From positions 1 through 20,114 of the IMG/VR virus record IMGVR_UViG_3300030328_000171: a DNA stretch of 20,114 nucleotides. One strand, given 5' to 3'. The position numbers and the translations under genes were made by a program. This document shows positions 186 to 20,114 of this stretch, piece after piece. Below the pieces are notes generated by a model that saw only the letters and a program-made list of their open reading frames with translations, was not told the DNA's origin and did no database searches. This stretch comes from a virus. The stretch's first letter is position 1; each line of letters begins with the position of its first letter.

Positions 186-301
186 GAAACGCAATCTTTT
201 TCCTGATCATATGTGTTGCATATGCGTGGGAAGTTTTAATTGAAGAAAGGTTTACAAGTCAATGGTATTACTCAAAAGTGCATTGGTCTGCCTTGCACTA
301 A
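182..301 (+). CDS. 39-residue hydrophobic small ORF upstream of the cell-wall hydrolase
   Basis: The ATG at 182 overlaps the stop of the preceding frame as ATGA, the coupling used by many genes here. The 39-codon product starts MRNAIFFLICVAYAWEVLI, so residues 4-19 could form one short membrane helix. A polar, aromatic-rich tail follows (ERFTSQWYYSKVHW). The last 40 bases overlap the start of the SleB-type hydrolase in another frame. A tiny single-span membrane protein overlapping a lysin is compatible with a minimal holin-like or lysis-accessory role. That is inference from position and hydrophobicity only; it could equally be a leader peptide for translational coupling or non-functional. 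There is no homology evidence. Confidence 0.4.
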   Translation: MRNAIFFLIICVAYAWEVLIEERFTSQWYYSKVHWSALH

Positions 302-654
302 ACATCTATCACGAAGCACGTGATCAGAGTACGGCAGGTCAGTTGGCAGTAGCACAGGTAACTGTCAACAGAGTGGATAGTAAACACTATCCCGATACAG
401 TATGTGATGTAGTGTATCAAAAAGGTAAGAGCATCTGTGCTTTCTCTTGGACATGTGATGGTGCAAGTGACACACCACATGAAGACAAGGCATGGCAGAA
501 GTCTATGATGTTGGCAGGTATGATGCTTGATGACAACAACAGTATAGATGTAGTGAATGGTGCGACACACTATCACACCACAGAAGTTAACCCCTATTGG
601 GCAGACAGCTTGCGAGTTGTCAAGCAGGTAGGGGATCACATATTTTATCAGTAA
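262..654 (+). CDS. SleB-family cell wall hydrolase (probable endolysin)
   Basis: The 130-residue protein matches the SleB/CwlJ cell-wall hydrolase pattern (Hydrolase_2). It has LALNIYHEAR around residues 11-20 with the likely catalytic Glu at 18, then AVAQVTVNRV (29-38), the segment around PDTVC (44-48), and AFSW (60-63). The family cleaves peptidoglycan glycan strands, so the likely role is lysis. There is no classical signal peptide: the hydrophobic N-terminus is the first helix of the fold, so export would need a holin or another route. The ATG at 262 is preceded by GAAGAAAGG at 242-250, and an in-frame stop at 241-243 limits extension. It sits at the head of the replication module, away from the opposite-strand genes. 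It could instead act on the envelope at another stage. Confidence 0.88.
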   Translation: MVLLKSALVCLALNIYHEARDQSTAGQLAVAQVTVNRVDSKHYPDTVCDVVYQKGKSICAFSWTCDGASDTPHEDKAWQKSMMLAGMMLDDNNSIDVVNGATHYHTTEVNPYWADSLRVVKQVGDHIFYQ

Positions 655-3775: not shown

Positions 3776-4999
3776 ATGGAATTATCACTACTAAGAAGCC
3801 TGATGGACAAGCCATTCTATGATGACCATAGAGGAGCGAAGTGTCCTAACAGACTATTCACCAAAGATGCACAGAAGATCAAGGCTATCATTGACTCTTG
3901 CATGACGAGGTATGAACGTACTGTTACACCCGATGAGGTGGAAGCGTTGTTCATATCAACCAATCCATCTATGACAACAGCACAGAAGACTGCTTACTCT
4001 CACTTGTTTGACAAGATCAAACGTGAACAACCGATGGGATCAGACATTGCACAAGAGGTATTGTCTAAGCTGTTCCAACAGGTAATAGGAGAAGACATAG
4101 CCAACTTAGGATTTGATTATGTCAACGGCACTAAGACTAGTCTTGAAGACGTACGCAATCTTCTTGAACAGTATGGTGATGACTTTACACCTAATCTTAA
4201 TATCACTTGGGATGATATAGATATTGAAACACTACTAGCTAAGAATGATCTTGAAGCTAGGTGGACATTCAACATCCCTTCACTTGTGCGTAAGCTAGAG
4301 GGAGTGAACGATGGTCACTTGATTGAGGTAGGTGCTAGACCTAACACAGGTAAGACTTCCTTCCATGCTAGTTTGATTGCAGGACCTGAAGGATTTGCAC
4401 GACAAGGTGCTAAGTGTATTGTCTTATGTAATGAAGAAGGTACGCATCGTGTCGGGGCTAGATACCTTACGGCTGCCACAGGCATGACAATGCAAGAGAT
4501 CAAACAGAACCCTCAACTAGCTAGAGATAAGTACGATCCTGTTCGTAAGAACATCCGATTGCGTGATGCTACAGGCAGAGATATGTCATGGGTAGAGAGC
4601 GTATGCAAAGCATACAAGCCTGACATTGTGATACTAGACATGGGTGATAAGTTTGCCGTAACTAGTGGCTTTGCGAGGCAGGATGAGGCACTCAAGGCTA
4701 ACGCTATACATGCACGTAGTATAGCCAAGGTGTATGGGTGTGGTATCTTCTACATGTCACAGTTATCTGCAGAAGCAGAGGGTAAGGTACTACTTAATCA
4801 GAGCATGATGGAAGGTTCACGTACAGGTAAAGCTGCTGAAGCAGACCTGATGCTTTTGATTGCTAAGAATCCTGTGGTGGAAGGACAGGATGAAGAGGAT
4901 ACACAACGACATTTAAACATTGTCAAGAACAAACTCACAGGATGGCATGGTGTTATCCATTGTGAACTTGACTACAAAACAGCGAGGTACACAGCATGA
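3776..4999 (+). CDS. Replicative DNA helicase (DnaB / T7 gp4 type)
   Basis: The 407-residue protein carries a RecA-fold motor in its C-terminal half: Walker A GARPNTGKT (186-194), catalytic Glu220 in LCNEE, Walker B IVILD with Asp288, and the sensor-like Gln329 in MSQLS. The first 150 residues are helical and may correspond to the DnaB-type N-terminal domain that contacts primase; that part is inference. It would unwind the fork as a hexamer alongside the preceding primase and the downstream family A polymerase. AGGAG at 3765-3769 precedes the ATG. The end overlaps the next gene by four bases (ATGA). Confidence 0.94.
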   Translation: MELSLLRSLMDKPFYDDHRGAKCPNRLFTKDAQKIKAIIDSCMTRYERTVTPDEVEALFISTNPSMTTAQKTAYSHLFDKIKREQPMGSDIAQEVLSKLFQQVIGEDIANLGFDYVNGTKTSLEDVRNLLEQYGDDFTPNLNITWDDIDIETLLAKNDLEARWTFNIPSLVRKLEGVNDGHLIEVGARPNTGKTSFHASLIAGPEGFARQGAKCIVLCNEEGTHRVGARYLTAATGMTMQEIKQNPQLARDKYDPVRKNIRLRDATGRDMSWVESVCKAYKPDIVILDMGDKFAVTSGFARQDEALKANAIHARSIAKVYGCGIFYMSQLSAEAEGKVLLNQSMMEGSRTGKAAEADLMLLIAKNPVVEGQDEEDTQRHLNIVKNKLTGWHGVIHCELDYKTARYTA

Positions 5000-5502
5000 G
5001 TAGACTACTAGAGATAAGAGAAGATGTTCCCACATTCCAAAGGGATCTACCTGTTAAGCATTGTAATAGATGTGCAACAGAACTAGTGATAGGAGAAACA
5101 TGGGGTGCAGGGAATGCACGTGTAAGTAACTACATGTGTAACAGTTGTGAGAAAAAGATCTCACGATACAACAGACTCAAGCGACTAGCACGTAACGTAT
5201 CTAAGATCGTATGGAAACAGTATGATACAGCCAAAGATGGTTACGTATATATCATATCCAACCCTACGTGGAGTGGGTGGTACAAGATTGGTATGGCTCT
5301 TGATGCTGAAGATCGTTTAAATAGTTATCAAACCTCTAGTCCTTTCAGAGATTATGTGCTAGAGTACAGTAAGTATTTCAAAGACAGAAAGAAAGCAGAA
5401 GCAATGGCACACCACAACATCGGTAGGATAAGCGATAAGAGAGCTAACGAATGGTTTCAAGTGCCTAAACACGAAGCAATAAATGTAATAGAGGGAATAT
5501 AA
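4996..5502 (+). CDS. Zinc-ribbon plus GIY-YIG (T5orf172-like) protein
   Basis: The 168-residue protein joins a four-cysteine zinc ribbon (Cys23, Cys26, Cys48, Cys51) to a C-terminal GIY-YIG domain of the T5orf172/MUG113 type. The domain shows GYVYIIS (82-88), WYKIGM (95-100), Arg107 in EDRLNSYQTS, Glu135 and His139/140 in AEAMAHH, and NEWFQV (151-156). The fold generally cuts DNA using a metal ion. It lies between helicase and polymerase, overlapping the helicase by four bases and ending two bases before the polymerase start. It could be a replication-associated nuclease or a domesticated homing-type endonuclease; the tight coupling and full integration favour the former. Confidence 0.84.
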   Translation: MSRLLEIREDVPTFQRDLPVKHCNRCATELVIGETWGAGNARVSNYMCNSCEKKISRYNRLKRLARNVSKIVWKQYDTAKDGYVYIISNPTWSGWYKIGMALDAEDRLNSYQTSSPFRDYVLEYSKYFKDRKKAEAMAHHNIGRISDKRANEWFQVPKHEAINVIEGI

Positions 5503-5504
5503 GA

Positions 5505-7559
5505 ATGAAACTAGTACTTGATGTAGAGAATACTGTCACCAAACGTAACGGCAAGATGCACCTTGATCCATTTGAGCCTGACAATAGCTTGGTTATGGTG
5601 GGTGTCTTACCTGCAGATATTAAAGATGACGTTAGGACACGCATCTATACGTTTGACCATGCCGATATTGAACCTACCTTCAATGGCAAAGAGGAGTTAC
5701 AATTAACTTTAGATAACACTACTCTTTTGATTGGTCACAATATTGCATATGATTTACTGTGGCTATGGGAGTCAGGGTTTAAGTATAATGGTGATGTGTA
5801 TGATACGATGCTTAATGAGTACGTCATTCAACGTGGAGTAAAAGAACCCTTATCGTTACAGGCATGTGCCGAGAGGTATGGTGCGACACCAAAGCAAGAC
5901 ACACTCAAGGAGTACTTTGCCAAAGGGTACAGTACACGTGACATACCACACGCAGAACTGTGTGAGTATTTACGTGCCGACCTACAGGCAACTAAGGATC
6001 TATACGATAGTCTTTCGTTACGTTATGAAGAGCCTGAGAATATAGGCTTAAAGAATACGGCAAGGCTAACAGATCAGGTAGCCGTGTGTCTTGCACGTAT
6101 ATATCAGCGTGGATTTAGTGTTAACCTAAGTAAGTTGAATGAAGTTCGTACTGAATTTGAAACTGAAAAGAATCAGATTGAGAAAGCGTTAACTCATCAG
6201 ACGAGAGAACTGATGGGAGATATACCTATCAATCTCAATAGTCCTGAACAATTATCATGGATAATCTATAGCCGTAAGCCCAACGATAAAACTATGTGGG
6301 GCAATGCGTTTGAACCATACATGTCTGATGCAGACTTCCGAAGGGTTATACAAACACAGTCACGTGTCGTATACAAACAGAGGGCAGTCAAGTGTAAGAC
6401 CTGCTATGGTACAGGTTATGTAAGGAAGACTAAGAAAGATGGAACTCCATTTGCAAAACCCAACAGATGTGTACTTTGTGATGCTGTTGGTTATCAATTT
6501 GTTAATACTGATCCACCTGCTTTGGCAGGACTAAAGTTCTCACCACCTAATCCTAAGTGGGCGAGTGCTAATGGTTTCACTACTAGCAAAACAAATCTTG
6601 AGATACTTGAGAAGGTAGCACGATCACGTGGCATGAAGGATGCCGAGTTATTCCTGCAACGTGTACGTAGATTGTCTGCCCTTGATACCTATTTGAGTAG
6701 CTTCATTGACGGCATCCAAACTCATACCAAGCAGGATGGTAAGCTACACGTACGCTTACTGCAACATCGTACTGCTACAGGTAGGTTTAGTGGTGCAGAT
6801 CCTAACATGCAGAACATGCCTAGAGGTGGTACGTTTCCTGTGAAGAAGGTATTCATATCCCGATTCAAACATGGCAAGATACTTGAAGCTGACTTTGCAC
6901 AGTTAGAGTTTCGTGTGGCTGCCTACCTTGGACAGGACACTACTGCTATTGAGGAAGTGAACACAGGCTTTGATGTACACAAGTACACGGCTGACATTAT
7001 CACCAATGCAGGTCAGAAGATCTCCCGACAAGATGCCAAGGCACATACGTTTGCTCCTTTGTATGGGGCGAGTGGACATGGCAGAACACCTGCAGAGGCT
7101 GCTTACTACAAGCAGTTTAATACTAAGTATAGTGGTATATCTAAATGGCATAAGCAATTAGCACATGAAGCACTAAACAAAGGTAAGATTAAGACACCAT
7201 CAGGAAGGGAGTTCGCATTTCCTGACATGGTACGTAAGCGTAATGGTGTGTCACACTTTACGCAGTTAAAGAATTATCCTGTACAATCCTTGGCAACTGC
7301 AGACATTGTGCCTGTAGCCTTGCTGTACATTGATAGTAAGCTTGATGATATGGAGAGTTGTATTGTAAATACTGTACACGATTCTATCGTCATTGATGTT
7401 CATCCTAATGAGAAGGGAAAGGTTCTCGACATAATAAGTAACACTAATAAAAAGTTAAATAATTTAATTGAAACACGATGGAATATTAAGTTTAATGTGC
7501 CACTATTACTTGAATCTAAAATAGGTAATAATTGGCTTGACACACATGATGTCGCATGA
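5505..7559 (+). CDS. polA: Family A DNA polymerase with 3'-5' exonuclease and DnaJ-like zinc insertion
   Basis: The 684-residue protein has proofreading exonuclease motifs Asp6/Glu8 (LDVEN), Asn79/Asp83 (GHNIAYD) and Tyr155/Asp159 (EYLRADL). Polymerase motifs follow: A DFAQLEFR (463-470), B with Arg508, Lys512, Phe516 and Tyr520, and C VHDS with His625/Asp626. The residue equivalent to E. coli Pol I position 762 is Phe516. Between the two halves, around 297-330, is a four-cysteine unit (CKTCYGTGY and CVLCDAVGY) like a DnaJ zinc finger. This arrangement is known from the SAR116 phage HMO-2011. It would replicate the phage genome with the primase and helicase upstream. The stop region overlaps promoter P2. 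Confidence 0.97.
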   Translation: MKLVLDVENTVTKRNGKMHLDPFEPDNSLVMVGVLPADIKDDVRTRIYTFDHADIEPTFNGKEELQLTLDNTTLLIGHNIAYDLLWLWESGFKYNGDVYDTMLNEYVIQRGVKEPLSLQACAERYGATPKQDTLKEYFAKGYSTRDIPHAELCEYLRADLQATKDLYDSLSLRYEEPENIGLKNTARLTDQVAVCLARIYQRGFSVNLSKLNEVRTEFETEKNQIEKALTHQTRELMGDIPINLNSPEQLSWIIYSRKPNDKTMWGNAFEPYMSDADFRRVIQTQSRVVYKQRAVKCKTCYGTGYVRKTKKDGTPFAKPNRCVLCDAVGYQFVNTDPPALAGLKFSPPNPKWASANGFTTSKTNLEILEKVARSRGMKDAELFLQRVRRLSALDTYLSSFIDGIQTHTKQDGKLHVRLLQHRTATGRFSGADPNMQNMPRGGTFPVKKVFISRFKHGKILEADFAQLEFRVAAYLGQDTTAIEEVNTGFDVHKYTADIITNAGQKISRQDAKAHTFAPLYGASGHGRTPAEAAYYKQFNTKYSGISKWHKQLAHEALNKGKIKTPSGREFAFPDMVRKRNGVSHFTQLKNYPVQSLATADIVPVALLYIDSKLDDMESCIVNTVHDSIVIDVHPNEKGKVLDIISNTNKKLNNLIETRWNIKFNVPLLLESKIGNNWLDTHDVA

Positions 7560-12739: not shown

Positions 12740-13055
12740 TGATTACCAAGAGAACGCAAAGAAGACAGCCATCTATGCACCTGAACACAAGATAATGTAC
12801 CCTGCCCTTGGTTTGGCAGGGGAAGCAGGTGAAGTAGCTAACAAGGTTAAAAAAATAATGAGGGATGGAGTACAGAAACTCCCACCTGATTGGAAACAAC
12901 AACTTGCTTCAGAGGTGGGGGATGTTCTGTGGTACTGTGCCGTACTAGCCGATGACTTGAATATATCGCTAGGTACAATCGCTGCACAGAATATAGATAA
13001 ACTGTCAAGGAGACAATCTAAAGGAACACTACAGGGTAGTGGAGATAAACGCTAG
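12729..13055 (+). CDS. mazG: MazG-like nucleotide pyrophosphohydrolase
   Basis: The 108-residue form has the all-alpha NTP pyrophosphohydrolase signature: LGLAGEAGEVANKVKK with Glu32 and Glu35, and LASEVGDVLWY with Glu62 and Asp65, the four magnesium ligands. It would hydrolyse (d)NTPs or possibly ppGpp; phage MazG is often proposed to keep host metabolism in a growth-like state or clean the nucleotide pool. Start choice is uncertain: ATG 12678 adds 17 residues of low-complexity Lys/Gln sequence, while ATG 12729 has AAAGG at 12715-12719 and begins MQLNDYQ, typical of the family. Its stop at 13053-13055 overlaps the stop of the converging minus-strand gene. Confidence 0.9.
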   Translation: MQLNDYQENAKKTAIYAPEHKIMYPALGLAGEAGEVANKVKKIMRDGVQKLPPDWKQQLASEVGDVLWYCAVLADDLNISLGTIAAQNIDKLSRRQSKGTLQGSGDKR

Positions 13056-16000
13056 GGTTCTAAAGTAGCGTACTCATTTAGCCAAAGTAGATCTTCAACG
13101 TCAGTATAGTCAGGCATTCTACCTTCCCTTGACTTGAACCACAATAAAGCACGTTTGCGTTTCCTAGAATTAAGTTTCTTAAATGCGGCAAACTCTTGCA
13201 ACAGTAGAGGGGCATCTTGTAGAAGTTGTCCTTCTTTTTTTGCTTGTGTTCTAAACTCTGACAACCTAGACCTCACGTAATCTATTTCTTCGTTACGTAA
13301 AAATGCTGCTTGGTCTTCGGCACTCCCCTCGTAGTCAAACATTTCTCCTTCCTTTACTAATTCTGCTTCCTCTTTGAGTTGAGGTAGCATATCACGCATG
13401 ATCTTATTCTCTATGTTTCGTACAGAAGGTATGCCTGATTTACTTTGGACTTTCCACTCTTTGATGCCGAGTTCATGTAGCCATTCTCCAACTTCGCTAT
13501 TTCTTTCCACAACATTTAAACCAAACAAGGCACGTAACGCAGGAGCTTTACGATCCTTGGTGTCACCTTCTTGGTATAGATACTGCTTGTCAGGTAAGTC
13601 TTCTTCCTCTGATGGAGATAGAAGATTAAACACACCTCTTCTTCTTAGGGGTTGTGTCACTTGGTGTTTAAATGTATCCCAACCACCAACAGGCATTTCA
13701 TCCCCCTGCTTTGCATACTCTTTCATAGCTAACTGTCGTATTCCTACAGCACGTTCAAAGTCAGCAACCTGTGCTATTGGTATTGCCCACGATGATATAT
13801 AGTTACCAACAATATCTCCTAAACTTTTTCCCATACGTTCACTTGTTACAAGATCATCTGCGTCTGCATCACCCACAATCTTTGCAATGTCTTCTATGAT
13901 GACTTGTCCTGTACCTGCACGTACGTTTGTACCACCAAAGGTTTCAGCAACATCTTTCAGATCAAACCAATCTCCAAATGTACCTTCGCCCCATCGCTTC
14001 ATTGCCTCGCCTACCCACAGGTATTGTCGCATTGGAAACTGTGGAGTAACATCTACTCCTGCACCTTCTGCAATCATGTCAGCATCTATAACTTTATAGT
14101 CCTCACTTTCTGCAGTCATTCGGTACATGTATGCGGCCATTGCAGCCGATACACCTACGAGATTACGAGATATCCTTTGTCGATCCATGTCTGTTAGGGC
14201 AGATTTAAGTGCATCTGTATCATTACTAATAAGATTTCCTATCTTTCTAGTAAGTGGCATGGATGCCCCACCTGCATAGTTGCCCATTAATTCCATTGCA
14301 CTAAACATAAAACGTGGGAAAGGTATAATCAGAGTACCACCATACTTTGTTATAAAGGTAGTAGCCGCTTGAAACATAGGAGTATTAGCTTGCTTTGCGT
14401 ACGTAACATCAAGAGCTTTAGTAGTAGCTGACTCCATTAGCTGTTCAAATGTCTTACTATCAAGATTTGTACGTAAAGATGAGTCGTTGTTCATAATGGA
14501 TTTGATCTTACCTTTATCAAGTAAGTCCATGAAGTCCTGATCCCACTCACGTTTCACTAGGCGTTGCATCTCACCAAAGAATACGGATCTTCTAATAAGA
14601 AACTCTTGCCATCTGTTAGGAATATTTACTTTATCAACTATAAACTCCATTCCCTGTAAAGCTTTTTCACCTAGACCAATGTCCTTACCTTCCTGCTTAC
14701 CTGTGTATCTCCTGATCTCGTTTACCTGAGAGTACATTTTATCGTGCCATTTCTCCATGTCCTTGCCGTACTTGAAGAACCATTCATCCAAACCTTTTAA
14801 ATCTCTTGCTGTTAAGTAGCTCATACTCTTAAAAGAGTTCTTCCAATTCTCTCCTGAGAATAAGTTAGATGCCGCCTTACCAACTCCACCTTTCTGCAGA
14901 TCAAAGATAGCCTGATCCATGACGTTACCCAATCCTTCTAGTGGCATACGTATCATTGCAGATGTAAGGTTACGTGATGCAGTAGCAATAGAAGAAACCA
15001 TAGCACCTCTACGTATGTTCTCTATACGTAGCCAATACTGTCCTATGGCACTCTGAGTTTCCATCATTTCCTTGTACTTAGCTTCACCAACAAGACTCTT
15101 TAATCCCTTACCCATCTGTTGTGCTTTCTGCAGACCTCTACCAAATTGAGAAAACGATCCAACAGTTGCTAAGATAAATTGATTATATGACATGCCGTTG
15201 TTGCTCAGTATGTCGAGGAACATTTTTGGGTCCATCTCTTGATTAACAGCCATGTCGAACAGGTTGTCTATATTCGTTTTCTTATCATCCCATTTAAACT
15301 TAGACTTTTTCTTAGACTTATTCGGGGCAGCTAGTCTTTTAAAGTCTGCAATAATACCTGTTGTTTGATCTAAGGTATCTAAGTTTAATAGAGGATTAAT
15401 AGTATCATCTGCAGTTAAACCAAGTTTATCTATAGGAAGATCTTCTCCTTCTTTTAGTGTACCTTCTTCATTCTTTAACTTTGAAATAGCTTCGGTGTGT
15501 TGCGAAAGTCTGTCAGGATTTCTCAGAACTCGTAGACCTAGTTCCCTGTATGCCTCTCTGTCTACTACCATGTTTCCTGACTTATCTTTTTTTAATTTTA
15601 TTTTGCCTTGTTCGTAAACTACCTTGCCATTTTTATCTGTAACAAACTCAAAGTTTTCAACTTCGCCTTTTGCATTTCTAATAGTCTTTTTAATCTTAGG
15701 TACTAGAAGATCCTTTTCAAATTCCTTTACAAGTTCTAGCTGCTCCTTATTCGCTTTTGCAGCCTTGTTCTTCTGATTAGTTTTTGCTCTCTTTGCTTCA
15801 GCTTCAGTATTATACTTAATGTTATCTAAGTCAATCTGTCGCTGACCACCTATCAAGTTCTTCTTGTCGGACAACTTAGGTCCTTTAGGTTTCTTACCCT
15901 TCTGCTTGTCAAGAGCATTAGCAATAGCAATTTCCTGATCAGCAATCTTGCCTACTGTTTCATCGCTAACTTTACCATTCTCATTTAACTCTGTTCTGCC

Positions 16001-16969
16001 AACACGACCTAGCTTTACTTTCTTAACACCTCGGAATAGTAGTTCGAGAGGTCCACCAAGGATAGCACCCTCTGCCATGTTGCGTAGTCTATTTTTAAAT
16101 CTGTTATCTTCTCCTTCAGTCATGTCAGTCGCAAGGTAATCAGCAACAGCACCTTCTGCCCATCCAAACTCTTTTAACATGGCGGCTAGGTTTTCTTCAT
16201 CAGGATCAAACACAACAGCATCAGCAATACCTGCGTTAATCATTGTATTACGAAAGCCTTTGAATCCTTTTGCTCCACTCTTTAGCATCGTAAACTTACC
16301 TGCACCAATCATACCTGCAGCAAACTGCGTAATGCCTGAAGCTATTGATCCTGTTATTGTGTCGTACTCATCACTTATGATGTCAATGTTCTTAACGCCA
16401 CCTGTAATAGAATCCTGTACAGTTAACTTGCCATCAGCAAATCCTTTCTTGACATCTTCACGACTCCAATAAGAGGGTATCCAACTGTTATCATCATCCC
16501 ATACAAGTCTACCAATACCAAGTTGCTCTTCTACCCAATTACCAACGTCACCTATAAACGCTGCAGTTTGGTTGATCGCTCCTTCTATACCACCAAAAAT
16601 AGCTTGAGGTACTTCTAGTAGACCACCACCCATGTCCTTTAAAACAGCTACTGCAGTACTATTATTCCTGCCGTAGTAATCATCCTTTGCCATTTCGATA
16701 AGCACAGAAGGATCTGTATCGCTGTACTCTTCCGACTCTTGCATAGTTTTAACTAGTTCACCTATAGCAGTAGCATCATCTTCATTCTCAGCTTTTGAAA
16801 GCACCTCTTCCCTAAATTTTTTCTCTTGAATCCTTACCTTATTATCCCTATCAAAGTCTTCTTTATCAGGAATAACAAGTTCAGGGAGATACTCATCTTC
16901 CAATTCTTTTTCAGGAATAGGTACATCTGTTTTAAAATTGTCAATAAATTCTTGAGTAAGTTGTGCCAT
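13052..16969 (-). CDS. Very large virion/DNA-ejection-type protein (1305 residues)
   Basis: No domain is clearly recognised. The length (1305) is near T7 gp16 (1318), and it is the last gene of a minus-strand block of helix-rich proteins, the place expected for a large internal virion protein ejected with the DNA. Visible features are an acidic N-terminus, a Gly/Ala-rich amphipathic region (about 108-147), a Lys-rich linker (about 350-410), a helical core, and a Pro/aromatic hydrophobic stretch near 865-900 (GGTLIIPFPRFMFSAMELM) followed by an Ala-rich helix near 940. These could insert into membranes. I saw no transglycosylase ESxxNP signature. Its ATG is three bases after the stop of the preceding gene. 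A structural role is inference. Confidence 0.6.
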   Translation of the reverse strand: MAQLTQEFIDNFKTDVPIPEKELEDEYLPELVIPDKEDFDRDNKVRIQEKKFREEVLSKAENEDDATAIGELVKTMQESEEYSDTDPSVLIEMAKDDYYGRNNSTAVAVLKDMGGGLLEVPQAIFGGIEGAINQTAAFIGDVGNWVEEQLGIGRLVWDDDNSWIPSYWSREDVKKGFADGKLTVQDSITGGVKNIDIISDEYDTITGSIASGITQFAAGMIGAGKFTMLKSGAKGFKGFRNTMINAGIADAVVFDPDEENLAAMLKEFGWAEGAVADYLATDMTEGEDNRFKNRLRNMAEGAILGGPLELLFRGVKKVKLGRVGRTELNENGKVSDETVGKIADQEIAIANALDKQKGKKPKGPKLSDKKNLIGGQRQIDLDNIKYNTEAEAKRAKTNQKNKAAKANKEQLELVKEFEKDLLVPKIKKTIRNAKGEVENFEFVTDKNGKVVYEQGKIKLKKDKSGNMVVDREAYRELGLRVLRNPDRLSQHTEAISKLKNEEGTLKEGEDLPIDKLGLTADDTINPLLNLDTLDQTTGIIADFKRLAAPNKSKKKSKFKWDDKKTNIDNLFDMAVNQEMDPKMFLDILSNNGMSYNQFILATVGSFSQFGRGLQKAQQMGKGLKSLVGEAKYKEMMETQSAIGQYWLRIENIRRGAMVSSIATASRNLTSAMIRMPLEGLGNVMDQAIFDLQKGGVGKAASNLFSGENWKNSFKSMSYLTARDLKGLDEWFFKYGKDMEKWHDKMYSQVNEIRRYTGKQEGKDIGLGEKALQGMEFIVDKVNIPNRWQEFLIRRSVFFGEMQRLVKREWDQDFMDLLDKGKIKSIMNNDSSLRTNLDSKTFEQLMESATTKALDVTYAKQANTPMFQAATTFITKYGGTLIIPFPRFMFSAMELMGNYAGGASMPLTRKIGNLISNDTDALKSALTDMDRQRISRNLVGVSAAMAAYMYRMTAESEDYKVIDADMIAEGAGVDVTPQFPMRQYLWVGEAMKRWGEGTFGDWFDLKDVAETFGGTNVRAGTGQVIIEDIAKIVGDADADDLVTSERMGKSLGDIVGNYISSWAIPIAQVADFERAVGIRQLAMKEYAKQGDEMPVGGWDTFKHQVTQPLRRRGVFNLLSPSEEEDLPDKQYLYQEGDTKDRKAPALRALFGLNVVERNSEVGEWLHELGIKEWKVQSKSGIPSVRNIENKIMRDMLPQLKEEAELVKEGEMFDYEGSAEDQAAFLRNEEIDYVRSRLSEFRTQAKKEGQLLQDAPLLLQEFAAFKKLNSRKRKRALLWFKSREGRMPDYTDVEDLLWLNEYATLEP

Positions 16970-16972
16970 AAT

Positions 16973-18067
16973 CTATCCTAGTAATCCTAATCTTCTCAAT
17001 GTATCTTGTGTCATAATTGGATGATCACCTGTTCCAATCATTTCATATATGGTACGATCATCCTGTTTAACTTGAATAACTTTATTATCAATTTTAAATG
17101 CAGCATTCATTATTTGTTGTAATAAATTCTTCTTATCAGGAACACCCATTTGATTATATTGATAGTAGTCTTCTACATTTAATACTTGTACCAATTTTAC
17201 AGCTTTAGTATCTTTATCTACACCATCTTTATTACCTGCAGTTACACCTTGTATAACTTCATTGATTTGATTATCAAGAGTACTATTTACTCCCTCTAAA
17301 TGTCTTTGAATTTCAGGAACATTATCATACTCATTTTCAGTACTAAAAAATTTTGTTTGAGTATTTACAGCATTTTGATAACCTTTAATAAAAGTAAAAG
17401 GTTTAATTCCATCCCATTCTTTTTTCTTTAAATCAATTTTACCATCTCTCTTTGTTGCTAATCCGTTTTGCATCAAGAAAAAATCGTGAGTAGATTGTAA
17501 TGTAGCTACTGACATAGTTCTTCCATCTTTAGGCTCTCTAAACTCAGATATTAAGTTATGAACTTTTATCATTTTTTGTTTGTTTTCTTCTGTAGGATTA
17601 TCTAAATACTGAATACCAAGAGATTGAAATTCGTTTGCTAATGTATCCTGCTTAACTCTATATTGTTTATTGAATTGCTCCATGTTGATACTATAATCAG
17701 AAGACTGTGTACCATCATCTCCTGTAACTTGCTGTACTTTAATTAGAGTACTTAGATCAACAGCATTTTCTCCTTGAGCCTTTTCTAATAAAGAATTTTG
17801 TGCAACTGTTGGAAGAGAGGTTACATACTCTAGCATACCTTTATCCATGTTTGGACCACCAAAAGCCTTAAACATAGCAATAGCTTCTTCTTTCTCTTTA
17901 GCCCTTGCCGCATTTCTTGCAGCAGATTCTTTACGTGCTTGTGCTTTCATTCGCATGTTGGTAAGCTTTGTCTCAAGCTCTAGTCTATTTTTAACCTCAC
18001 GCTTTTCGTCATTAATTTGCATGCCACGTTGAGCCATGCCCCCTAAAAATGATAATGCTAAACTCAT
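16973..18067 (-). CDS. Putative structural protein with N-terminal coiled coil
   Basis: The family is not recognised. The 364-residue protein starts with a short hydrophobic stretch (MSLALSFLGGMAQ), then a long charged helix rich in Lys, Glu, Arg and Ala (about 17-65) likely to form a coiled coil. A mixed helical domain of about 300 residues follows, with few cysteines. Size and composition fit an internal virion or neck/ejection protein between the 177-residue and 1305-residue genes. The start overlaps the previous stop as ATGA and the end is three bases from the next ATG, so all are probably cotranslated. The N-terminal hydrophobic segment is too short to be a convincing signal peptide. Confidence 0.65.
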   Translation of the reverse strand: MSLALSFLGGMAQRGMQINDEKREVKNRLELETKLTNMRMKAQARKESAARNAARAKEKEEAIAMFKAFGGPNMDKGMLEYVTSLPTVAQNSLLEKAQGENAVDLSTLIKVQQVTGDDGTQSSDYSINMEQFNKQYRVKQDTLANEFQSLGIQYLDNPTEENKQKMIKVHNLISEFREPKDGRTMSVATLQSTHDFFLMQNGLATKRDGKIDLKKKEWDGIKPFTFIKGYQNAVNTQTKFFSTENEYDNVPEIQRHLEGVNSTLDNQINEVIQGVTAGNKDGVDKDTKAVKLVQVLNVEDYYQYNQMGVPDKKNLLQQIMNAAFKIDNKVIQVKQDDRTIYEMIGTGDHPIMTQDTLRRLGLLG

Positions 18068-18597
18068 TGCATAGCTCCTCTCGCCATTAATCCTTTCGGT
18101 GCATCCTCAACAGGAGCATCCGTTACTTCTTCTTCCCCACCAACAGGATCTCCTTCAGGAGTTTCCTCTCCTAGTTCTTCTTCAAATCTATCGAATGCCT
18201 TTTGTGCGGCAATACTATCTATAATGCTGTTATCTTCTTCCTCTTCTAAACCTAATTCAGGAGTAATACCTGCTTCTTCGGCTAAGTATTCTAGTAGTTC
18301 TATAATAAAAGGAATAACAAGAATACCTGTATCAATCGTATGCACACCTTCCATAACATTAGCAGTCATTAAAGTTTCAGAAAGCATAGTAATAGGTACA
18401 CCACTTTCCATGATAGACACAGCATTTGCCGATACTTTCGGAACTAGCATTCTGTCTACGTAATGGTTCATTACATCTGCAACTTCAGCAAACTGAGGTG
18501 GTCTTTGCCAAGGTCTTCCCCCCGGCTCGGCAGTTAAAGATTCCCCCGGAATCGGTGCATTAAATTTATCTATAGAACTAGGACTAACTATTGGCAT
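18064..18597 (-). CDS. Hypothetical virion-block protein with acidic C-terminal region
   Basis: The 177-residue protein is not assigned to a family. It opens with a Pro/Ser-rich extended segment containing PIPGESLTAEPGGRPWQRPP (about 15-34), then a helical middle with an Ile/Leu-rich helix (about 92-108, GILVIPFIIELLEYLAEEAG). The C-terminal third is strongly acidic (EEEED and later GGEEEVTDAPVED). Such an acidic tail could be a scaffold-like or partner-binding element. The ATG lies inside the end of the upstream 64-codon gene (14-base overlap) with an AAGGA-type site before it, and its own stop overlaps the next start as ATGA. Confidence 0.65.
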   Translation of the reverse strand: MPIVSPSSIDKFNAPIPGESLTAEPGGRPWQRPPQFAEVADVMNHYVDRMLVPKVSANAVSIMESGVPITMLSETLMTANVMEGVHTIDTGILVIPFIIELLEYLAEEAGITPELGLEEEEDNSIIDSIAAQKAFDRFEEELGEETPEGDPVGGEEEVTDAPVEDAPKGLMARGAMQ

Positions 18598-18778
18598 CGT
18601 TCATTTCCTTACGTTGTTTTCGTAACAGTTTTACAAAGTGTGCAACTGTGTGTATGGGTTCGTTGCCCTGTTCTTTAGGCTTTTTGTTTCCCATGAAACC
18701 TTTTGATGGTGACATGTCTTTGTCATCCATATACCCCTGATCATTAAAACTTTTCATAGCCATTCGTGCCATCTTCAT
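18584..18778 (-). CDS. 64-residue Met/Lys-rich basic small protein
   Basis: The product begins MKMARMAMKSFNDQGYM, has a Lys/Gly-rich middle (KGFMGNKKPKEQG) and a C-terminal basic helix (HTVAHFVKLLRKQRKEM). No family is recognised. The basic helix could bind DNA or the acidic tail of the next gene product, which overlaps it by 14 bases. I chose ATG 18778 because AAGGAGAT (18790 to 18783) sits just before it. An in-frame ATG at 18805 would place that site inside the coding region and overlap the upstream gene. Its position between virion-type genes suggests a minor structural or assembly role. Confidence 0.65.
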   Translation of the reverse strand: MKMARMAMKSFNDQGYMDDKDMSPSKGFMGNKKPKEQGNEPIHTVAHFVKLLRKQRKEMNDANS

Positions 18779-18782
18779 GTTT

Positions 18783-18790
18783 ATCTCCTT
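18783..18790 (-). promoter_or_regulatory. Strong ribosome binding site deciding the start of the 64-residue gene
   Basis: Read on the minus strand this is AAGGAGAT, four bases before ATG 18778. Its strength and placement exclude the upstream in-frame ATG at 18805 as the main start. Confidence 0.65.
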
Positions 18791-18791
18791 A

Positions 18792-20114
18792 CTATAATAT
18801 TCCACCTGTAATAAAGTCTACAACCCAACCACCAATATTAGCGGCACTTTGAGCATTCCTTGCATCTTCTGCCATCTGTGCGTTACCTTCTACCTGCATC
18901 TTAGTAGTAGCCAAAGTTGTATTCCTATCTAGTTGGCTTTCACTAGATCTCCACGCTCGTTCCATAGAGTCACCATACTGTTGCCATATCTGTTGGTATG
19001 CTGTCTGTGACATTTGCACTAAGTTCTGTGCATTAATCTCGTTAGCTCTATTGATTGCAGCCGTGTCACCTGTAGCGATTGCCCTTCTCCATTGAGCATT
19101 GCTTTGTGCAATAACTAATTGGTTCTGTGCATTAAATTGATCACGCTGATTTTTTATCTGCGTATTGAATTGCCCCATAGCATTCTTTTGCCCTGAGTTA
19201 AATTGATTCATTGCGTTAGTTTGTGCAGCGTTAAACTGTTTTACTTGTGTAGATAAACCATCATAGAATTGGTTCATCTGATTTGTACTAGATGCGTTGA
19301 ATTGTTTTGCGGCATTTTCTGCAGCTGTATCACTTAGAATAGCATTGATAGCTCCCTGTGCTTTTAACATAGAAGCCTGTTGATTGTTACTTAGATTAGC
19401 CATGTCAACAGCTAAAAAGTTTTGAGCGTTTTGTACTGCAGCTTGCTGTCTGTTATTGAGATTAGTTATGTCTAACTGCGACAATGCCGCGGCTTCAGCC
19501 ATCACTAGTGCTTGCTTGTTATTTAGATTAGCAAGGTTCATTGTATTAGCGATACGACTATTCTCTAATGCAACTTGCTGTTCAGCATTAAAATTCATAT
19601 TCGCTATGTCGGATATCTTTGATGCGTTGATAACCTTAGACTGAAACTCTTGATCAAACTTTTGACCCATAAACTTCGCACGTGTTTCGGCAGCCAACAT
19701 AACACGCTGTTGTCTGTTAGATAGATTCTGCCCCTCAAATCTTGCATACGTTTGAGCATCTATGTTAGCCATATTAACCTGTTGTTCTAACATGCCCTGT
19801 AGCATAGCCTGTGTCATGTCAGAACCTTGGATACCTTCAGCAGCCATCTTATCTCTTAGGCTTCGCATCATGTTTTTAGCTAATGGATTATCCTCCCTAA
19901 AAATTAACTCATCGTATTTTTCTAGTTGACCTGCTAGGGTAGCGTCTTTAGAGGGATCAGCTTGGGCAGCTTTTAATTCTTCAGCATACTTAGACGCACC
20001 CTCTGCATCTACAGTACTTTCTACAAGTTCACCATCCTGAAGTACACGCTTCTTGGGATCATCCATCATAATCCCTTCACCCTGTTCAGCTTTTAGTTTA
20101 GACACAGAGCTTTC
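18792..20114 (-). CDS. Hendecad-repeat, Gln/Asn/Ala-rich protein, probable virion/ejection protein (5' end open)
   Basis: The frame stays open to the window edge, so the true start may lie outside. In-window candidates are GTG 20105 (437 residues) and an ATG pair about 13 codons later. After a charged N-terminal region (to about 105) it is a long helix-forming protein. Residues 127-258 follow a 22-residue period with NLxNxQQ at 127, 171, 193, 215 and 237. Residues 268-344 repeat every 11 residues, each unit opening with QF. The C-terminus is Gly/Val/Ile-rich (GGWVVDFITGGIL) and may touch membrane. The make-up and position before the other virion-type genes suggest an internal virion protein forming part of an ejection conduit. 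No family homology is recognised. Confidence 0.7.
   Translation of the reverse strand, partial: ESSVSKLKAEQGEGIMMDDPKKRVLQDGELVESTVDAEGASKYAEELKAAQADPSKDATLAGQLEKYDELIFREDNPLAKNMMRSLRDKMAAEGIQGSDMTQAMLQGMLEQQVNMANIDAQTYARFEGQNLSNRQQRVMLAAETRAKFMGQKFDQEFQSKVINASKISDIANMNFNAEQQVALENSRIANTMNLANLNNKQALVMAEAAALSQLDITNLNNRQQAAVQNAQNFLAVDMANLSNNQQASMLKAQGAINAILSDTAAENAAKQFNASSTNQMNQFYDGLSTQVKQFNAAQTNAMNQFNSGQKNAMGQFNTQIKNQRDQFNAQNQLVIAQSNAQWRRAIATGDTAAINRANEINAQNLVQMSQTAYQQIWQQYGDSMERAWRSSESQLDRNTTLATTKMQVEGNAQMAEDARNAQSAANIGGWVVDFITGGIL
19074..19304 (-). repeat. 11-residue (33-base) coding repeat
   Basis: Units start at residues 268, 279, 290, 301, 312 and 323 with QFN or QFY, and a degenerate seventh (QSN) at 334, with no break in the spacing. 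Third-codon positions of the QFN triplets differ between copies, so the pattern is kept at protein level and is not a recent DNA expansion. Confidence 0.85.
19332..19727 (-). repeat. 22-residue (66-base) coding repeat
   Basis: Six consecutive 22-residue units at residues 127, 149, 171, 193, 215 and 237 of the minus-strand protein. Five begin with an NLxNxQQ-like motif; the unit at 149 is degenerate. The period is two hendecads, suited to a long amphipathic helix. Confidence 0.75.

Follow-up and report, generated by a model that had tools for sequence, protein, structure and literature searches.

Organization of the locus

The window, i.e. the whole stretch of 20,114 nucleotides analysed here, belongs to an uncultured podovirus of the HMO-2011 type. 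Integrase, helicase, and PolA genes were confirmed by Pfam, and genes for primase, class II RNR, and MazG were assigned from a gene order like that of HMO-2011; these replication genes lie on one strand. The structural operon converges on this strand. The family A DNA polymerase (5505-7559, plus strand) gives a weak match to a DnaJ-type CXXCXGXG zinc finger at residues 292-330, between its exonuclease and polymerase domains; a finger is annotated likewise in HMO-2011. Two further ORFs were recognized by eye: a putative SleB-type cell-wall hydrolase near the left end (262-654, plus strand) and a putative T5orf172/GIY-YIG-like ORF between helicase and polymerase (4996-5502, plus strand).

The gene examined here occupies the right end of the window. 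It is an open ORF, and the residue numbers used below refer to the C-terminal 440 residues that the window holds. The following features were distinguished.

18792-20114, minus strand: gene of the hendecad protein; C-terminal 440 residues only, 5' end outside the window
19809-19937, minus strand: head segment preceding the coil, residues ~60-102
19314-19808, minus strand: N-terminal coil part, residues 103-267, 15 hendecads arranged as double hendecads (lag-22 z = 5.5; position table)
19083-19313, minus strand: QFN coil part, residues 268-344, seven hendecads (lag-11 z = 8.1; position table)
19017-19082, minus strand: two weaker units in register, AIATGDTAAIN and RANEINAQNLV, downstream of the near-invariant NxxWR motif that closes the QFN part
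18795-19016, minus strand: C-terminal segment without 11-residue period (autocorrelation; Pfam on relatives), with a short hydrophobic, glycine-containing tail at its end

In relatives, the head segment reads P-x-WA-x-GA ... ARGLxxSS, followed by ALPIAQxDA within the first coil units. Residues P77, A79, G94, S98, and A103 are invariant (alignments A1/A3), as are N339, W342, and R343 of the NxxWR motif (alignment A10). The C-terminal segment is swapped or lengthened in relatives.

The 11-residue array

The seven units of the QFN part span 231 nt, or 77 codons. Split in frame from 19313 to 19083, they read AAKQFNASSTN, QMNQFYDGLST, QVKQFNAAQTN, AMNQFNSGQKN, AMGQFNTQIKN, QRDQFNAQNQL, and VIAQSNAQWRR. 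When each unit is counted strictly from its QFN, the array is QFNASSTNQMN, QFYDGLSTQVK, QFNAAQTNAMN, QFNSGQKNAMG, QFNTQIKNQRD, QFNAQNQLVIA, and QSNAQWRRAIA. Residue identity at lag 11 is 0.38 in this part; 20,000 shuffles, examined at every lag up to 35, never gave a value this high. The array reported in the sequence-only reading is therefore present on the minus strand and beyond chance. Its unit number of seven holds as well; the description as six perfect units and one degenerate unit does not, since five units carry an exact QFN, one has QFY, and one has QSN.

The extent of the array had been drawn too narrowly. The seven QFN units are the terminal stretch of about 22 unbroken hendecads (residues 103-344), the register running up to approximately residue 103. 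In the upstream double hendecads, NLNNxQ units alternate with other units to give a super-period of 22 residues. Across residues 103-366, identity is raised at lags 11, 22, 33, and 44 (z of 4.7, 8.1, 4.8, and 5.1, respectively), and lag autocorrelation detected no periodicity of their own in residues 1-102 and 345-440. With an unbroken register, hydrophobic core positions, and insertions or deletions in multiples of 11, the region has the sequence properties of a hendecad (11/3) coiled coil.

Relatives, database matches, and accessory domains

Matches to the hendecad protein were found by tblastn in 27 phage records, none of which gives it a functional annotation; nearly all call it hypothetical, and one calls it 'huntingtin'. 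The latter, from ctYwJ313 (L047, MW202701, 7345-9936), is a misannotation probably caused by Q/P-rich composition. The matching phages include HMO-2011, HMO-2011-type phages of RCA bacteria and pelagiphages, Vibrio phage CHOED, Aeromonas phages MQM1 and 1233, Pseudoalteromonas phage Slicky01, Sinorhizobium phage phiM6, and Rhizobium phages. At least 589 relatives are present in IMG/VR. The carriers are a very common yet unannotated group of ocean phages. Full-length relatives mostly comprise 590-1200 aa (717 aa in L006; 706 aa in phage1322_25 of HMO-2011). The same two phage contigs (L215-L218) were binned into metagenome-assembled genomes from two phyla, Flavobacteriales TMED123 and Neomarinimicrobiota MED589, so that this host assignment is unsafe.

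Pfam gave no match to the hendecad protein at E <= 1, neither Pfam nor PHROGs contained a family for the coil in this protein or its relatives, and single-sequence and profile searches of the PDB returned no match. A match of the CRP-3 protein to phrog_6121, which looked virion-structural, was discarded: the coil alone matches nothing in PHROGs, and the match therefore comes from the Peptidase_S74 end. Phage RIO-1 (Zobellviridae), whose annotation draws on mass spectrometry, has no relative of the hendecad protein, and no published virion proteomics for close relatives was found in the papers searched.

Some relatives carry additional domains. The hendecad proteins of CRP-235 (L042, gp25) and CRP-3 (L044, gp24) end in Peptidase_S74, and that of CRP-235 also has an N-terminal LysM, which fits contact with peptidoglycan. 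The better-known occurrences of Peptidase_S74 are in trimeric tail fibres. It fits a fibre or an ejection protein alike, because phrog_4287, named a DNA ejection protein, also has this domain, the match to phrog_4287 being confined to S74 itself. At the C-terminus of HMO-2011 gp25, a FCWVAREVYGEGDPRWY segment stands in place of S74, and L060 likewise has CWVAREVYGPANIDW.

The head segment is also found in a distant relative, Pseudoalteromonas phage Y3 (L048, 8527-10086; hhalign E 8.8e-8). There, RGLQSSS...ALPIAQQDAS is followed by a weaker 11-residue period of Y3's own, and the anchored coil is not shared. Head and coil therefore look like separable modules. Phage Y3 has an N4-gp56-type capsid, and its gene cluster ends in a 3421-aa protein of the DdrB/ParB type.

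Conservation of the register

The seven QFN units have diverged at the DNA level, as the sequence-only reading had noticed: their pairwise nucleotide identity averages 45% (maximum 61%), and CAA/CAG, TTC/TTT, and AAC/AAT are mixed among them. In comparison with L006, which is 86% identical, dN/dS is about 0.05 in the QFN part, 0.09 in the remaining coil, and 0.26 before the coil. Diverged codons together with low dN/dS imply that the repeat did not arise by recent slippage.

The length of the coil in relatives was measured between two anchors, ALPIAQxDA at its start and NxxWR at its end. With the stricter anchors, the spacing equals 7 modulo 11 in all 94 relatives; earlier versions of this test gave 33 of 33 and then 97 of 98, the one exception being a mis-hit anchor. 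Seven anchor-to-anchor lengths occur (150, 161, 172, 183, 216, 227, and 315 residues), and the spacing of 337 in ctYwJ313 is also 7 modulo 11. As a negative control, the lengths of the N- and C-terminal flanks (74 and 31 distinct values, respectively) are spread over all 11 remainders. The coil thus tolerates insertions and deletions only as whole hendecads.

Eight lengths require at least seven length changes, and we estimate the chance that all of them are multiples of 11 at about (1/11)^7, provided that length changes are independent and blind to the period. Accordingly, helix phase over the entire coil is under selection. The register is preserved between phages of Alpha- and Gammaproteobacteria at 25-40% identity. 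These data strongly support selection for an 11-residue helical period, as had been proposed; relatives lacking the spacing were looked for, and the proposal survived.

The same data bear on the idea that the period is a by-product of slippage expansion in a low-complexity protein rich in N, Q, and A. Unit number does vary among relatives and sequence complexity is low, as slippage would predict, but the divergence of the units under purifying selection and the register held at such low identity across two proteobacterial classes make this origin highly improbable.

Coil chemistry and predicted structure

In the N-terminal coil part, pooled relatives have hydrophobic residues at unit positions 2, 4, and 7 and amides at positions 1, 6, 9, and 11. 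In the QFN part, hydrophobic residues are found at positions 2, 5 (F), and partly 9, alanine at 7, and amides at 4, 6, and 11. About 31% of the coil is N+Q, and its charge is low, with 19 K+R and 15 D+E in 231 residues. When plotted on an 11/3 wheel, the hydrophobic residues do not gather on a single side; those of the N-terminal coil part lie at 98, 229, and 295 degrees. Judged from sequence, this would be expected for helices contacting two neighbours, unlike a lipid-binding helix.

A membrane-binding amphipathic helix, which the sequence-only reading had also named, would, if of the synuclein or perilipin type, share the 11-residue period, and the hydrophobic, glycine-containing tail could be counted in its favour. 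The coil, however, offers no single lipid face: it combines amide richness with few charges, has no flanking lysine pattern, and spreads its hydrophobic residues around the helix. Windows of the C-terminal tail are no more hydrophobic than those of the coil, and a C-terminal membrane anchor is for this reason not supported. We regard membrane binding of this kind as improbable.

The AlphaFold2 monomer model of the hendecad protein (59 sequences) is almost entirely helical. At a pLDDT of 53 and a pTM of 0.27, its confidence is low, and it therefore says nothing on the oligomer. At 1.5 A per residue, one continuous helix between the anchors would measure 340 A in most relatives and 225-505 A across the family. 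Since ~340 A exceeds a typical periplasm, the coil may fold back, form a bundle, or be used in part.

The gene cassette

In nearly all relatives seen, the hendecad gene is the first of a cassette that closes the structural operon where this meets the convergent replication genes. In the window, it is followed by four genes.

18584-18805, minus strand: cassette gene 2, ORF of 73 aa; a short ORF occupies this position in most relatives (synteny)
18064-18597, minus strand: cassette gene 3, 177-aa protein with a PIPGxSLT...PWxxPP motif, found in 26 phage records
16973-18067, minus strand: cassette gene 4, 364-aa protein; in relatives, divergent proteins of ~360-930 aa at this position (synteny)
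13052-16969, minus strand: last cassette gene, 1305-aa protein, gp16-like/polyvalent ejected protein by predicted fold (AlphaFold2; BFVD)

The order of a small ORF, a 177-aa PIPGxSLT protein, a divergent protein of 360-930 aa, and one of 800-1900 aa recurs in nearly all annotated relatives; phage HTVC033P is rearranged downstream of the hendecad gene. The 177-aa protein has no Pfam or PHROG family and is confined to essentially the same phages as the hendecad protein. No tblastn match to the 364-aa protein was obtained at E 0.01, and its homology therefore rests on synteny.

AlphaFold2 modelled residues 505-1305 of the 1305-aa protein (46 sequences) with a pLDDT of 68 and a pTM of 0.62. A fold search of BFVD returned viral models, all themselves predicted, with E values between 1e-18 and 1e-6. 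Among them were a polyvalent-domain protein and the internal virion proteins of three phages, Synechococcus phages S-RIP1 and S-CBP3 and Pelagibacter phage EXVC018P; the matches to internal virion and polyvalent proteins had E 2e-17 to 1e-6. No significant match was found by the corresponding PDB search. The syntenic protein of HTVC033P contains LPD38 (E 1.3e-23), and that of Slicky01 matches virion structural protein families. The 1305-aa protein of the window gave no match to the LPD38 profile and a negative hhalign comparison with the HTVC033P protein.

As in a podovirus ejection cassette, these late genes adjoin one another, and the last encodes a large protein that is gp16-like/polyvalent by predicted fold; cultured relatives keep the order. 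The proximity to ejection-type genes claimed in the sequence-only reading is thus upheld by inference for the 1305-aa gene, through its fold matches and the LPD38 domain of its HTVC033P counterpart. The layout is similar to that of podovirus JC1, whose purified virions contained an LPD38 protein; the gene for it directly follows those for virion-associated proteins of 196 and 510 aa (PMC9144972).

Gene position bears on two further explanations. The first is an external part of the short tail: a fibre, needle, or stalk built as a trimeric coiled coil, whose chains are trimerised by a chaperone at their C-terminus. Genes annotated as tail and tail fibre do lie upstream of the hendecad gene, the CRP-3 and CRP-235 versions end in the endosialidase/tail-fibre chaperone S74, and trimers and tetramers can be built from hendecads. 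Against this, the gene opens a cassette that ends in a polyvalent/internal-virion-like gene, S74 was not seen by Pfam in most relatives and, within the limit of the phrog_4287 match given above, also occurs in an ejection protein, and the coil is unusually rich in amides, with no single a/d/h seam. An external tail component is on balance unlikely.

The second is a protein inside the head that would act as scaffold, ruler, or core, organizing DNA or the ejection stack there, and would form no channel. A length quantized in hendecads would suit a ruler, an amide-rich surface could contact packaged DNA, and in T7-like phages a stack of helical ejection proteins makes up the core within the head (PMC8954989). 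The LysM of one relative, however, points to the cell wall, and the scaffold gene of tailed phages normally adjoins the coat gene, as in RIO-1 but not in the window. We consider such a role quite unlikely.

Comparison with known ejection and pilot proteins

Protein H of phiX174, a DNA pilot protein that forms a decameric alpha-helical tube (PDB 4JPP), is the closest working analogue. Its coil and that of the window protein are both long, helical, Q/N-rich, and proline-free (N+Q of 26% in H residues 151-271 and ~31% in the window coil). The H tube starts with three hendecads, QKELTKMQLDN, QKEIAEMQNET, and QKEIAGIQSAT, and 18 of the 23 residues lining its lumen are N, Q, or R (PMC7354561). Opening hendecads of the form Q..[ILM]..[ILM]Q are likewise present in the window coil. 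The two differ in that H has three hendecads followed by heptads over 121 residues, whereas the window coil has 22 hendecads and no heptads over 242 residues. Also, H is the wall-spanning genome conduit of an ssDNA microvirus; the window protein would play this part in a podovirus, with a putative decamer and lumen. The phiX174 units fit the position profile of the hendecad family best in their natural register out of 11; this match is suggestive only, with 11% of position-permuted controls doing equally well. No sequence relation to microvirus H was detected by Pfam (E <= 1) or by the PDB profile search.

Among podoviruses, the injection protein gp12 of Sf6 assembles into a decamer with a stem that has room for the phiX174 H tube (PMC4755594). 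It is an ejection protein from a phage group with a P22-like coat, and its gene lies near the end of the structural operon, as does the hendecad gene. No profile similarity between P22 gp20 and the hendecad protein was found by hhalign, and neither P22 gp20 nor Sf6 gp12 has an 11-residue periodicity (best lag-11 z 2.3). The gp14/gp15/gp16 set of T7 resembles the window in having smaller helical proteins followed by one of ~1300 aa (PMC8954989), but the cassette of the window has five genes, the first of them far larger than gp14. T7 gp14 showed no similarity to the hendecad protein in hhalign, and T7 gp14-16 gave no lag-11 signal. P22 gp7 and the hendecad protein share a GLGS/GLGASS-type motif in a helical region followed by an amide-rich stretch; gp7, however, has 229 aa and no hendecads, and hhalign revealed no relation even with an eight-member gp7 family alignment (probability 0.5%). 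Polyvalent proteins with LPD38 bear on the 1305-aa neighbour, which they resemble by predicted fold, rather than on the hendecad protein. The latter would accordingly be a variant among helical ejection/pilot proteins that is not, by the comparisons made, a detectable member of the T7 gp14, P22 gp7, or P22 gp20 families.

Proposed function

We propose, with a probability of about one half, that the hendecad protein belongs to the internal virion proteins that are ejected and that its coil builds an amide-rich helical tube or rod. Its gene adjoins one resembling genes of injected phage proteins, and the product may therefore help to build a channel through the envelope. A helical tube or trans-envelope channel, as suggested in the sequence-only reading, is plausible and is the best reading of the data.

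The hendecad protein would be packed in the head together with the downstream products of the cassette and would leave it ahead of the DNA, as the first or an early component. The N/Q-rich region of 22 hendecads would form a long straight helix, and such helices would self-associate side by side through the hydrophobic stripes on two of their sides to yield a hollow tube or a rod. Placed in or across the cell envelope, this assembly could serve as an amide-rich conduit for the genome or as a strut, like phiX174 H or Sf6 gp12. The 11-residue period would fix helix geometry, so that length could shift only by whole hendecads. In this scheme, the period with its conservation, the quantized lengths, the predicted helicity, and the cassette are findings, and the place in the virion, ejection, oligomerization, the tube, and contact with DNA are inferred.

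A bolder version is tentative, and we rate it as possible but doubtful. It holds that the coil is an envelope-spanning, amide-lined helical barrel made of hendecads throughout, which evolved in this group of tailed dsDNA phages independently of T7 gp14/15 and P22 gp7/20, is convergent with the phiX174 H tube, and has its length tuned to the host envelope in 11-residue steps (150-337 residues between anchors). If the protein does form an envelope channel, it would represent an independent instance of the phiX174-type amide-lined tube. It would also offer an all-hendecad system of simple sequence, in which the length of the tube, the chemistry of its lumen, and delivery of the genome could be tested by adding or removing whole units.
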